From: Chthonomonadia bacterium
GTDB lineage: Bacteria; Armatimonadota; HRBIN16
Direction: 5' to 3'
Assembly (NCBI GenBank): GCA_013314755.1
Contig: JABUFA010000026.1
Span: forward strand, 1-51,683
DNA length: 51,683 nt
The notes under the pieces were generated by a model, which saw only the letters and a list, made by a program, of their open reading frames with translations, was not told the DNA's origin and ran no database searches. This document shows positions 29,575-34,733 of this stretch, one piece after another. Position numbers and translations under genes: made by a program. Within the stretch, counting starts at the first letter, position 1. Each line of letters begins with the position of its first letter.

Positions 29575-30126
29575 CTATATACGCGAGGTGTTATCGTCAC
29601 CAGTGATGACCGAGCTGCGGTCTATCGTTTTGGCGGTAGCATCCCACCTTGCTACGATGAGAGAGCGCGAGCGACCGCCCGGGATGGTGCTGTAATTCAG
29701 AATATCCTGACGGTTGTGGGTAACAAGGAGCCTTTGCAAGAGAGATGCTACACCGAAAGGTGACAGAAGGAAAGCGTATTCTGGCTGGATGACGCGACTG
29801 TATCCCAGCAGCTGGGAGAGGTGGGTGAGTGTAATCGGTGTGTTCTTGCACTCGACAATCGCGAGCTTCATCTCGCTGTGCTGGTATACCCAGCCGATGA
29901 TGTCCACCTTTACGTCCCAAGATTGCCAATCTGCAGGTAAACGAGAAGTATCCAACTGATTCCTCAGAAATCGGTGCAATGCCTGTTGCGCCGTCTGCGC
30001 TACATGGACATCGCTATTCGGGAAGCGTGCCTGCAGAAACTCCTGTAACCATGTGAGCACATCTGGGTACATGAAACGCTCACGAGTGTATGGCGAGCTC
30101 TTTGCACTACCCTGTCTGTTCCTCAT
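29575..30126 (-). CDS. PD-(D/E)XK nuclease-like protein, last gene of a restriction-modification-like operon
   Basis: This 183-residue protein has a PD-(D/E)XK core: VDIIGWVY (Asp75) followed by KLAIVECKNTP (Glu92, Lys94), then THLSQLLGYSRVIQPEYAFL as the supporting helix and strand. These are the catalytic residues of many restriction enzymes. The start is either the ATG at 30126, which overlaps the upstream gene by 20 bases, or the ATG at 30072 (165 residues). No target-recognition domain is obvious, so specificity may come from the partner protein upstream. It converges with the dehydrogenase gene, 4 bases apart. Confidence 0.7.
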   Translation of the reverse strand: MRNRQGSAKSSPYTRERFMYPDVLTWLQEFLQARFPNSDVHVAQTAQQALHRFLRNQLDTSRLPADWQSWDVKVDIIGWVYQHSEMKLAIVECKNTPITLTHLSQLLGYSRVIQPEYAFLLSPFGVASLLQRLLVTHNRQDILNYSTIPGGRSRSLIVARWDATAKTIDRSSVITGDDNTSRI

Positions 30127-31045
30127 CGATACCTGCTTCTACCTCATCGGTGAACCGTTCTGCCTCCCTGTCATCTCGCACGTAGCGTTGACATCCCAGG
30201 GCGCGGCATATTTCGAAGTAGGCGTTGAAGTGCCGGCCCTGCAATGGAGGCGGAAGATGCTGGGTATCTTGCTCTTCATCGGCAGGAGGCTTTTCCCTCC
30301 GCACTCGCCGTACACCGGGGCAGGGATTGTACCCAATGTTCGGAAATCGCTGACGGTCACGCTGGGCAAATTGCTCAAGCAGATGCTGTTTGTGCCGAAA
30401 TGAAAAGCCTATCGGCAGAAAAGCCTCTGCAAATATGTTTATCTGGTGCTCTCGGAAGGCGCGTCCCATGTTGGGATGTCCCCAGTTAATCAGCTGAACG
30501 GGCACTCCAATCTGTTCCTGCAGGAGGGTACACAGCTGAACCGGGAGCTGCCAGTTCGCAGGCGAATTGAGCACATCAAGGCGCACACGATGCCGACCGT
30601 CTACATACCTGTTCACGTGACGGATGTTGCCTGCCACGTCGGCGTAGCCACGTACGAATTGTATCTTCCAGTCTTTGGGTATCTGGGGGTCGAAAAAGAC
30701 CGAAGGAACCTGAAAGTGCGCATAAGACAGCTTATTGTCTAAGAGCAGCAGGATATTGCGCCATGCCATACTGTTGCGAAGGAAGCGGATGGTCAGGGTA
30801 GCGCTGGTAGAGCCAGATATGGTTTCCACATCCGCCTCGAGCAAATCCACCAGGCGTTTACGAATGGTATGTAACCCCAGCAGGATTTCCGTTTCCTGGT
30901 CGTATTCTGCATCATTGCCCTGCAGCTTGAGGGTTGAGTAGGGAAAATCGATAACTACCTGGCGCACTGCGGGGGCTTCCGTAAGCGTGCCTCGAGCAAC
31001 GATAAGCCCCGACAGATAAGCGACGTCGGCATCCATATAGTCCAT
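30107..31045 (-). CDS. LAGLIDADG-like DNA-binding protein with degenerate catalytic positions
   Basis: The 312-residue protein has two LAGLIDADG-type helices at equal spacing, YLSGLIVARGTL (residues 10-21) and FVRGYADVAGNI (130-141). Each is followed by a mixed alpha/beta segment; the second has RVRLDVLNSPANWQLPVQLC. In active enzymes the residue before the last glycine is Asp or Glu. Here it is Arg18 and Ala138, so cutting by this protein is doubtful. A polar tail of about 85 residues follows. It lies between a DNA methyltransferase (8-base gap) and a PD-(D/E)XK nuclease (20-base overlap), suggesting a site-recognition subunit. The fold call is by motif only. Confidence 0.6.
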   Translation of the reverse strand: MDYMDADVAYLSGLIVARGTLTEAPAVRQVVIDFPYSTLKLQGNDAEYDQETEILLGLHTIRKRLVDLLEADVETISGSTSATLTIRFLRNSMAWRNILLLLDNKLSYAHFQVPSVFFDPQIPKDWKIQFVRGYADVAGNIRHVNRYVDGRHRVRLDVLNSPANWQLPVQLCTLLQEQIGVPVQLINWGHPNMGRAFREHQINIFAEAFLPIGFSFRHKQHLLEQFAQRDRQRFPNIGYNPCPGVRRVRREKPPADEEQDTQHLPPPLQGRHFNAYFEICRALGCQRYVRDDREAERFTDEVEAGIDEEQTG

Positions 31046-31053
31046 AGGGCAGG

Positions 31054-31947
31054 CTACCTCTTCTGCAAAATCAGGATGAACTCATGAACCTTATTGATGC
31101 GAAACACGCGGGGATAACCGAGCGGACGCAGGTTGTTATACTCCTGACGACGGTCCCAGATAATCAGGTCATCCCACACAAAACCAATCTCCTGTAACTT
31201 CTGTGCCAGGTCGGAATGATAGGGATAGAACCTATCCCGTTTGCGGATGTCCATCACCACGACACAGCAATAGCCGCCCTGCCGCAGGGCGGTGTAGACC
31301 TGCGAGAAAATCTTCTGCAGTTCCGCGAGAAACTGATTGTAGTCCGAAATCTTGCCAAGGTCATTCTCTTCATCACCATAGTGACGTATCGGCTTGTAGT
31401 CGGCTGTGCGCTTTTCCAGCAGAATATCCCAGTAGGGTGGTGAGGTAACCACAAGGTCTACACTGTTCTCGGATACAAACTGGAGTAGATGGCGAGCGTC
31501 GGCGGTATGTACCTCACACTCCACCTCCTCTTCCGCATCAAACAGTCCTCTGGACTTTAATCTCTGACGCGCGATTTCTGCGTACGCTGGGTTGAGTTCG
31601 ATGCCGATGCCTTTCCTGCCCAGCTGTTTGGCTGCTACCAGCGTGCTACCTATTCCCACAAATGGGTCAAGCACGACCATGCCTCGGTTGGTAAAGCACT
31701 CGATAAGCCTGCCGGCAAGCGCAGTTGGAAACATGGCGGGATGTTTCAGCGCAGCTTCTTCGGGCGATTTGCGGATGTCGCTCCAGATGGAGATGGAATA
31801 CCGCGTCCATGTGGCGCCATCCAGCTCGTTCATCCGCCGGGTGTCGGCGTCATACGTGGTGGTGACCACTTCACGAAGCAGTTCTTCGTCGTACCCATCG
31901 TACAGCAAAGTCTGCTCGTCGGAAAGCACTTTCTCTTCACCTGTCAT
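31054..31947 (-). CDS. Site-specific DNA methyltransferase (TSPPY type, probably N4-cytosine)
   Basis: The 297-residue enzyme has motif I LDPFVGIGSTLVAAKQLGRK (from residue 93) and motif IV TSPPYWDILLEK (168-179). A motif X-like KHPAMFPTALAGRLIE stands before them, giving the order X-I-IV. TSPPY is typical of N4-cytosine methylases, though some N6-adenine enzymes share it. About 60 residues at the N-terminus (YDADTRRMNELDGATWTRYS and on) resemble the leader found in such enzymes. It heads a three-gene minus-strand set with the LAGLIDADG-like and nuclease genes, so it most likely protects the host genome. Confidence 0.9.
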   Translation of the reverse strand: MTGEEKVLSDEQTLLYDGYDEELLREVVTTTYDADTRRMNELDGATWTRYSISIWSDIRKSPEEAALKHPAMFPTALAGRLIECFTNRGMVVLDPFVGIGSTLVAAKQLGRKGIGIELNPAYAEIARQRLKSRGLFDAEEEVECEVHTADARHLLQFVSENSVDLVVTSPPYWDILLEKRTADYKPIRHYGDEENDLGKISDYNQFLAELQKIFSQVYTALRQGGYCCVVVMDIRKRDRFYPYHSDLAQKLQEIGFVWDDLIIWDRRQEYNNLRPLGYPRVFRINKVHEFILILQKR

Positions 31948-33277: not shown

Positions 33278-33964
33278 TCAGCCCTCCTGCGTGCTCCTGC
33301 GCGACCGTAAAGCCTCCAGCACCTCCATCGGCAAGCCGACCATCTGGGCGAAGGCGGTGAACGCGTCGGGCATGGTGTCTGTGCCCAGCCATTCCACCCT
33401 CAGCCAGAAACCGGGTATCACACGCGAATGTATCACGCCCTCTTGCACGGGTATCGGTTCGTACACGCCCTGTTCGTTCAGAGTGAACGCCTCTGCCTTG
33501 CCTTCGGGTGTCTGGGAGTCTACCAGCCAGTATTCGCGCACTCCAAAGGACTGGTACTCGGCAAACTTCTGCTGGCGGTCGCGACGCACGCTATCCTGCG
33601 AGACCACTTCAATCACCAGGTCTGCCGGACCCTCTACCCGTTCCTCAGTCAAACGGTGCAGGTTCTCGGCGGAGATGAACAGGATGTCCGGCTCACGCGA
33701 GGGACCTGAAGGCGATAAGCGCATCTCAAAGGGGGCGACCCTTACTACTCCAATTCCAAACGAGTCCGCAAAGTTGCGCAGTAGCGTCACCAAGAACGTA
33801 ACGATATCCTGATGTCTATCTTTTGGTGGCATAAAGACAATGACCTCCCCGTCCACCCATTCGGCGTGAACGTCCTCATCCGCCCACTGCAGAAACTGTT
33901 CGTAGCTCATGCGCAGGCGATAGGCTTCTTCGCGCAGAGGCGTCTGGCTGTGTACCGATTGCAT
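33278..33964 (-). CDS. Uma2-family (DUF820) PD-(D/E)XK protein
   Basis: The 228-residue protein shows the DUF820 pattern: [33 protein letters not shown] with the catalytic Asp, and [20 protein letters not shown] with the Glu, then [14 protein letters not shown]. These small nuclease-fold proteins are abundant in cyanobacteria and other phyla, and their function is poorly known. A GGGAGAAGGTGAG site lies before the ATG. It is the first gene of a minus-strand series that continues through URO-D. A link with the restriction genes further on is possible but not shown. Confidence 0.85.
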
Positions 33965-34060: not shown

Positions 34061-34500
34061 TCACACCAGCAATTCGTCCAGCACCTGCACAGGAAGAGCC
34101 GGCACCTGCTTAAATGCACGGTCATTAGTGATAAATGCGACGCAACCGGTGTCTATGGCTGTAGCAGCGTGGATGGCATCAGGCGTGCGCAGGTTGTGAA
34201 CAGCACGCAGGCGAGCCGCTTGCTTCAAAACAGATAGTGTTATCGGCAGCAAGCGCATTTCCGTACGGAGTAGGGCTTGTTCGTAGGCAGATACCAGTGC
34301 GGGATCGTTGTTTTTCAAAGGGAGAACTAGTACCTCCATGAACGGAGCTCGCTGCTGACTACCTGGAAGTCTCCTCTGCGGGAACCATCCCAGAGGGAGT
34401 GTAAAACAGTCCAGTAAACGGGGTGCCTCTCTACCGTATAGATGAGAATTGGAGTATCGACATAGACTACTCCCGGTATGGGGAGATTCAACGATGCCAC
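34061..34500 (-). pseudogene. VapC-type PIN-domain toxin, interrupted by a one-base frameshift
   Basis: Two frames together give one PIN domain. From a GTG at 34500, which overlaps the antitoxin end by 13 bases and has AGGAGG upstream, the product reads VVYVDTPILIYTVERHPVY and on to DFQVVSSELRS before a stop. The next frame continues FMEVLVLPLKNNDPALVSA to LRTPDAIHAATAIDTG and FITNDRAF at 34061. All four acidic catalytic positions are present across the two pieces. The shift falls near 34340, between SSEL and MEVLVLPL, consistent with loss of one base. The gene is dead unless this is a sequencing error. Confidence 0.75.
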
Positions 34501-34733
34501 GAGTTACGCTCCTCCTGAAAATCTCTCTCCGCCTCTTCCCAGGTTTTGCCAGAGCGGGGGCCCTGCGGTAGAGCCTGTACCAGCTCAAGCATGGATTGAC
34601 GAGCAGTGCACGGTTGATCGCCGGATGGTAACACGATGATTTCCACCCTTTCCCCTTCCTGTAATTCGGGCACAGTGAACTCCACCCGGTGACCGGGCAG
34701 TACAACAGTATGAATACGAAGTGCAGTTTGCAT
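34488..34733 (-). CDS. VapB-like antitoxin
   Basis: The 81-residue protein starts MQTALRIHTVVLPGHRVEFT with PELQEGERVEIIVLP, a short beta-rich DNA-binding start of the kind seen in antitoxins of PIN toxins. A charged helical tail (TWEEAERDFQEERNSWHR) that would wrap the toxin follows. An AAGGAGG site precedes the ATG. The vapC reading frame begins inside its last codons. With the toxin broken, the antitoxin would be free to lose its function. Confidence 0.7.
   Translation of the reverse strand: MQTALRIHTVVLPGHRVEFTVPELQEGERVEIIVLPSGDQPCTARQSMLELVQALPQGPRSGKTWEEAERDFQEERNSWHR

Follow-up and report, generated by a model that had tools for sequence, protein, structure and literature searches.

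In the window (the whole stretch of DNA that was analysed, 51,683 nucleotides), three minus-strand genes probably encode a Type II-like restriction-modification (R-M) system, of which the restriction enzyme consists of two proteins: a LAGLIDADG recognition subunit that is catalytically dead (LAG) and a PD-(D/E)XK subunit that cuts (PDX). It also seems fairly likely that such pairs form a natural class, in which a dead LAGLIDADG specificity subunit is combined with PD-(D/E)XK cleavage in trans over phyla, plasmids, and phages, and in which methyltransferases are swapped around the constant pair. The HNH, GIY-YIG, and PD-(D/E)XK folds are common to homing and restriction enzymes. As for LAGLIDADG, no description of a specificity subunit with this fold in an R-M system was found in the literature searched (REBASE and subscription journals were outside the scope), and LAGLIDADG is absent throughout a major review of Type II enzymes (PMC4081073). 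If the proposal is correct, the LAGLIDADG fold enters a restriction system, as the reader rather than the cutter; the pair would be a natural counterpart of the engineered dead-meganuclease fusions, its targets may exceed the usual restriction sites in length, and compact natural parts (about 300 and 170 aa) would be offered for site-specific cutting or nicking. Neither LAG nor PDX matched a family in Pfam, NCBIfam, PADLOC, or PHROGs; thus, current defence-system annotation misses the family.

Layout of the locus

The three open reading frames described in an earlier note on this DNA are present on the minus strand (Table 1), and both spacings that it reported were measured, namely, 8 bp between the methyltransferase gene and the LAG gene and a 20-bp overlap between the LAG and PDX genes. 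The order on this strand is methyltransferase, LAG, PDX, with the methyltransferase transcribed first; translational coupling through the overlap is possible.

Table 1. Coordinates of the genes, motifs, and active-site residues of the system, and of the fused methyltransferases in other loci
Feature	Position	Strand	Remarks
DNA methyltransferase P0001, 297 aa, N6_N4_Mtase family	31054..31947	(-)	PF01555 E=9e-36; proposed modification enzyme
Methyltransferase motif I, D94PFVGIGST102, SAM binding	31642..31668	(-)	D94, P95, F96, G98, G100, S101, and T102 invariant among homologues
Methyltransferase motif IV, T168SPPYW173, catalytic	31429..31446	(-)	Invariant in 6 homologues
LAG (P0002), 312 aa, catalytically degenerate two-motif LAGLIDADG protein	30107..31045	(-)	AlphaFold2 model and 12 homologues; proposed DNA-recognition (specificity) subunit
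LAGLIDADG motif 1, residues 10-21, YLSGLIVARGTL	30983..31018	(-)	Catalytic position R18 (30992-30994)
LAGLIDADG motif 2, residues 130-141, FVRGYADVAGNI	30623..30658	(-)	Catalytic position A138 (30632-30634); D136 invariant
PDX (P0003), 183 aa, PD-(D/E)XK nuclease	29575..30126	(-)	Model pLDDT 85 and fold matches; proposed cleavage subunit
PDX D75, active-site Asp	29902..29904	(-)	Invariant in 10 homologues
PDX E92-C93-K94 (E-x-K)	29845..29853	(-)	E92 and K94 invariant in 10 homologues
PDX Q105xxxY109 motif	29800..29814	(-)	Q105 and Y109 invariant in 10 homologues
LAG/PDX gene overlap, 20 bp	30107..30126	(-)	Overlap of 4-20 bp in 9 of 11 loci
Natural EcoRI-type adenine/C5 methyltransferase fusion	L053 2180-4282; L055 609-2717; L056 622-2748

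Fold and catalytic positions of LAG

Known LAGLIDADG enzymes carry their catalytic acid as residue 8 of each motif. Motif 1 of LAG reads Y10LSGLIVARGTL21 and motif 2 reads F130VRGYADVAGNI141, and in the profile alignment with a canonical intein LAGLIDADG protein, R18 is placed against GDG and A138 against DSDG. The replacement of the catalytic acids by these two residues, as the earlier note had claimed, extends to the 12 homologues: the position is Arg (five), Ser (one), or Asn (six) in motif 1 and Ala (five), Gly (one), or Thr (six) in motif 2, and neither Asp nor Glu occurs at either of them (0/12). Retained residues of the motifs are G13, G19, R132, G133, A135, and D136, the last of which (the first D of the 'DxD' in motif 2) is invariant in the 12 homologues; the basic or polar residues R142, N145, and R153 after motif 2 (following strand region) are also retained, and this region would be the part that contacts DNA in the LAGLIDADG fold.

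The structure of LAG was predicted with AlphaFold2 on a two-sequence alignment (mean pLDDT, 53.6; 90 residues at 70-90; residues 188-312 unreliable). The model has a repeated helix-strand-strand-helix pattern, two per monomer, and the best structural match of residues 2-191 in the PDB was I-DmoI (Z 10.3, rmsd 7.7, 135 aligned), followed almost solely by homing endonucleases, inteins, and WhiA (3hyi; Z 8.0, rmsd 5.5, 119 aligned). LAGLIDADG-fold proteins were in 32 of the 33 top rows of the match list, which unrelated ribosomal proteins enter from Z 6. By sequence, with single and profile queries, no relative of LAG or PDX was found among the PDB chains. Independently of structure prediction, the profile of the 12 LAG proteins had a sole non-member match in 291 genomes, an intein in G076 (E 1e-4), both LAGLIDADG motifs of which align with both motifs of LAG. 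Thus, LAG is predicted to have the LAGLIDADG fold without the catalytic acids, and the model bears out the fold that the earlier note had proposed for the 312-residue protein. The match in G076 was rejected as a new LAG member and was used as the canonical reference; this intein (L070, G076:C349; motifs GDG and DSDG) lies inside a ribonucleotide-reductase-like protein. A putative zinc site, C242/C280/C285, was dropped, these cysteines being missing in the plasmid and phage homologues.

Nuclease core of PDX

The D-ECK core, which had been described as intact, is present (D75 and E92-C-K94) and is kept in the 10 full-length homologues over which invariance was counted; E16 is likewise invariant among them. 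The superfamily is characterised by a D...(D/E)xK active site on an alpha-beta-beta-beta-alpha-beta core; this fold was predicted confidently for PDX (pLDDT 85), and nearly all PDB matches of the model have it. The best was PaqCI (Z 8.1, rmsd 3.8, 128 aligned), and others were the NucS-type 2vld (Z 8.0), BsaWI (Z 7.8), the small subunit of R.BspD6I (2p14; Z 6.7, rmsd 3.9, 118 aligned), and the nuclease domains of FokI and MspJI (Z 6.4). Each match taken singly is modest; the case for PDX as an intact PD-(D/E)XK nuclease is carried by the agreement among the matches and by the invariance of the active-site residues. Weak library matches of LAG or PDX (HSDR_N_2, 0.023; Cas4, 0.0032; YhcG_C, 0.019; colicin Z, 0.0065) were not taken as assignments.

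Distribution and linkage of the LAG-PDX pair

Whole-genome searches were performed on 291 Armatimonadota genomes, and plasmid, phage, and viral records were searched beyond the phylum. The order methyltransferase-LAG-PDX was also found in the hot-spring bin HRbin16, which belongs to the same genus as the window genome, and in three further Armatimonadota families (G209, G105, and G255), in one of which the locus is truncated where the contig stops. The pair was also found in two Lactiplantibacillus plantarum plasmids, two human-gut phages (assigned hosts, Lachnospiraceae and Anaeroplasmataceae), and three IMG/VR viral contigs; in the viral records, the Armatimonadota alignment had returned nothing as the query, and a phage-type query then succeeded. 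Wherever a complete locus was found, LAG is followed directly by PDX, with a methyltransferase next to the pair, and the adjoining of a DNA methyltransferase gene to the nuclease gene is a trait of Type II R-M systems. The two genes of the pair share 4-20 bp in nine of 11 loci and are 6-19 bp apart in the other two, and the gap between the methyltransferase and LAG genes is 0-9 bp in eight of 11.

When LAG and PDX were searched separately, they returned the same two of 50,697 phage records and the same two of 72,556 plasmid records; that is, the same four of about 123,000 records hold both. In the 291 Armatimonadota genomes, intact LAG and PDX always occur together, contig ends aside, and both decay: degraded or residual LAG and/or PDX sequences were found in G198, G196, G208, G197, G005, and G006, and the decaying copies in the first three show loss of the restriction part. 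In these three (L048, L051, and L052, from G198, G196, and G208, respectively), a truncated LAG is fused with the final part of PDX or with other sequence. Pairwise identities among the LAG proteins track those among the PDX proteins (r=0.94), which partly reflects shared ancestry, and the dN/dS test, in which dS was saturated, gives a qualitative sign of purifying selection and no more. Since the degenerate LAG positions, the nuclease core of PDX, and the gene order are kept in homologues down to about 25-30% identity, the arrangement is not due to chance. Conservation of the three-gene order, which the earlier note had made a test of its proposal, thus holds in part: the order of LAG and PDX is conserved across phyla with a methyltransferase always adjoining, but the exact trio is not. 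Because the methyltransferase partner is exchangeable, the conserved unit is the LAG-PDX pair.

Methyltransferase partners

P0001 is, as had been noted, a TSPPY methyltransferase upstream of LAG, with a match to PF01555 and with both DPFVGIGST and TSPPYW. Its motif I precedes motif IV, i.e., the protein is circularly permuted relative to the PF01555 model, and also relative to the Thermus-type 2zie, of which the C-terminal half aligns to P0001 residues 37-131. The identity of P0001 to the methyltransferases of related loci in other Armatimonadota is 47-77%, and that to the methyltransferases of the phage contigs L057 and L058 is about 50%. Homologues with 48-66% identity are present in many Armatimonadota genomes, and neither LAG nor PDX is in the flanking regions that were examined; therefore, the P0001-type family lives outside the system too. 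One locus (L010, G009:C88) has a P0001-type methyltransferase, 77% identical to that of the window, at a contig end, and neither LAG nor PDX was found elsewhere in its genome, which was searched with both.

METHYLTRANSFERASE are swapped around the LAG-PDX pair, with four kinds of methyltransferase across the loci. The Armatimonadota loci have one N6_N4 methyltransferase each, not two, whereas all the non-Armatimonadota loci (plasmid and phage) have two methyltransferases or a fused pair: an Eco57I/TaqI-like N6 methyltransferase and a P0001-type one in L057 and L058, an EcoRI-type adenine methyltransferase and a C5 methyltransferase as separate genes in L059, and a fusion of the EcoRI-type and C5 enzymes (about 700 aa) in the plasmids and gut phages. 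LAG proteins that are 52-55% identical are found beside non-homologous methyltransferase sets; in L057 and L059, for example, the LAGs are 52% identical and the methyltransferases are non-homologous. Such exchange around a constant pair is expected if the pair is the restriction part, for which any methyltransferase that protects the site would suffice.

Comparison with known systems and proposed mechanism

The functionally nearest systems are the heterodimeric Type IIT/IIS enzymes R.BspD6I (BstNBI), BtsI, and BsrDI, in which the larger subunit recognises the whole site, the small PD-(D/E)XK subunit (about 186 aa) has no specificity, and two methyltransferases, separate or fused, usually accompany the enzyme (PMC4081073, PMC2909958); Type IIT enzymes that recognise asymmetric sites have, as a rule, two methyltransferases in the locus (PMC4081073). 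PDX resembles the small subunit of R.BspD6I. However, in Type IIT enzymes, the large subunit also contains a catalytic site, with which it cleaves one of the strands, whereas LAG has the LAGLIDADG fold without catalytic acids. Because no second catalytic site is recognisable in LAG, the pair falls outside Type IIT as defined in PMC4081073 (two catalytic sites, one per subunit), although it may work alike. With LAGLIDADG homing endonucleases (I-DmoI and intein endonucleases), LAG shares the predicted fold of residues 2-191 and two motifs per chain; unlike them, the LAG homologues all have no catalytic acids, and their genes accompany those of a methyltransferase and a nuclease rather than residing in introns or inteins, so that catalysis (no acid at position 8) and context both place LAG outside this group. 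The transcription factor WhiA (DUF199) uses the fold for DNA binding, and the LAG model is like it, but LAG differs in its lack of a match to the WhiA families and in its R-M operon context. The nearest design is the engineered fusion of an inactive I-SceI with PvuII (Fonfara et al. 2012, as cited in PMC3857828), where, according to that citation, the inactive LAGLIDADG protein gives specificity and the PD-(D/E)XK protein cuts, as proposed here; that fusion is an artificial single chain, whereas LAG-PDX is a natural two-gene pair. A separate specificity subunit, as proposed for LAG, is also found in Type I systems (HsdS/HsdM/HsdR) and Type IIB systems such as BsaXI, but there the HsdS-type recognition domains are common to the methyltransferase, whereas here the LAGLIDADG fold is used and there is no ATPase gene.

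In the proposed mechanism, the methyltransferase would mark the target sequence in host DNA and protect it, LAG would bind the unmethylated target, and PDX, tethered on the target by LAG, would cut. Because LAG has no catalytic site, PDX would have to cut both strands, as a dimer or successively, or the product would be a nick. A two-motif LAGLIDADG monomer could read an asymmetric site, which would fit the two methyltransferases (one per strand) of the non-Armatimonadota loci. The use of a homing-endonuclease fold as a specificity subunit with cleavage in trans, suggested in the earlier note, is largely supported by the predicted fold, the lost acids, and the adjacency of LAG and PDX; binding of DNA by LAG, its association with PDX into one enzyme, a target common to this enzyme and the methyltransferase, and a role in phage restriction are what we infer beyond these.

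Alternative explanations

The strongest rival, which we regard as unlikely, is that LAG is a regulator of the R-M operon, WhiA-like or a control protein, and that PDX, small as it is, acts by itself as a complete Type II restriction enzyme. In R-M systems, the gene of a control protein frequently lies ahead of the restriction gene and overlaps it, and PvuII is a restriction enzyme of similar size to the 165-183-aa PD-(D/E)XK protein; PDX is thus big enough for a full enzyme and may not need LAG, and the full-length enzymes BsaWI and NgoMIV appear in its list of fold matches, as WhiA does in that of LAG. However, these PDX matches also include cleavage modules of which the specificity resides in another domain or subunit (PaqCI, MspJI, FokI, NucS, and BspD6I2). 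The probability of this explanation is lowered because the short gap between the methyltransferase and LAG genes in most loci leaves no space for an operator between the modification and restriction genes, and because LAG has no match to the WhiA families in Pfam; LAGLIDADG_WhiA (PF14527) had no match anywhere in this genome, while the positive controls matched.

It is very unlikely that LAG still cuts or nicks via other acids (e.g., D136) with PDX as an accessory nuclease or second-strand cutter. The invariance of D136 would agree with such activity, and there are heterodimeric enzymes of which the large subunit nicks DNA (PMC4081073), but position 8 is never acidic here and D136 has no equivalent in motif 1. 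Least probable of all is a selfish homing or addiction element that resides beside methyltransferases and does not restrict phages, for which the LAGLIDADG ancestry, the small plasmids and phages among the carriers, and the patchy presence and decay in Armatimonadota could be adduced; against it, LAG is a free-standing open reading frame in a methyltransferase operon in all loci, with no carriage by an intron or intein and no insertion into a target or conserved gene, and both of its catalytic positions are lost. R-M systems themselves act as addiction modules, so that this explanation and the split restriction enzyme, which we favour, are not exclusive.

Neighbouring genes

A DUF4268/NucS-like gene follows PDX in HRbin16 (L003 6356-7297), and none is next to PDX in the window; in two congeners (L006 545-1501 and L007 1-745), such a gene lies beside PDX remnants, the rest of the system being gone. 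In the phage NatCom_34063, a GmrSD-type restriction gene is located directly after PDX (L056 4202-6295). Near the system in the window are a Uma2-family PD-(D/E)XK gene (33278-33964) and a gene resembling PIN-domain toxins, preceded by a small partner (34061-34733).
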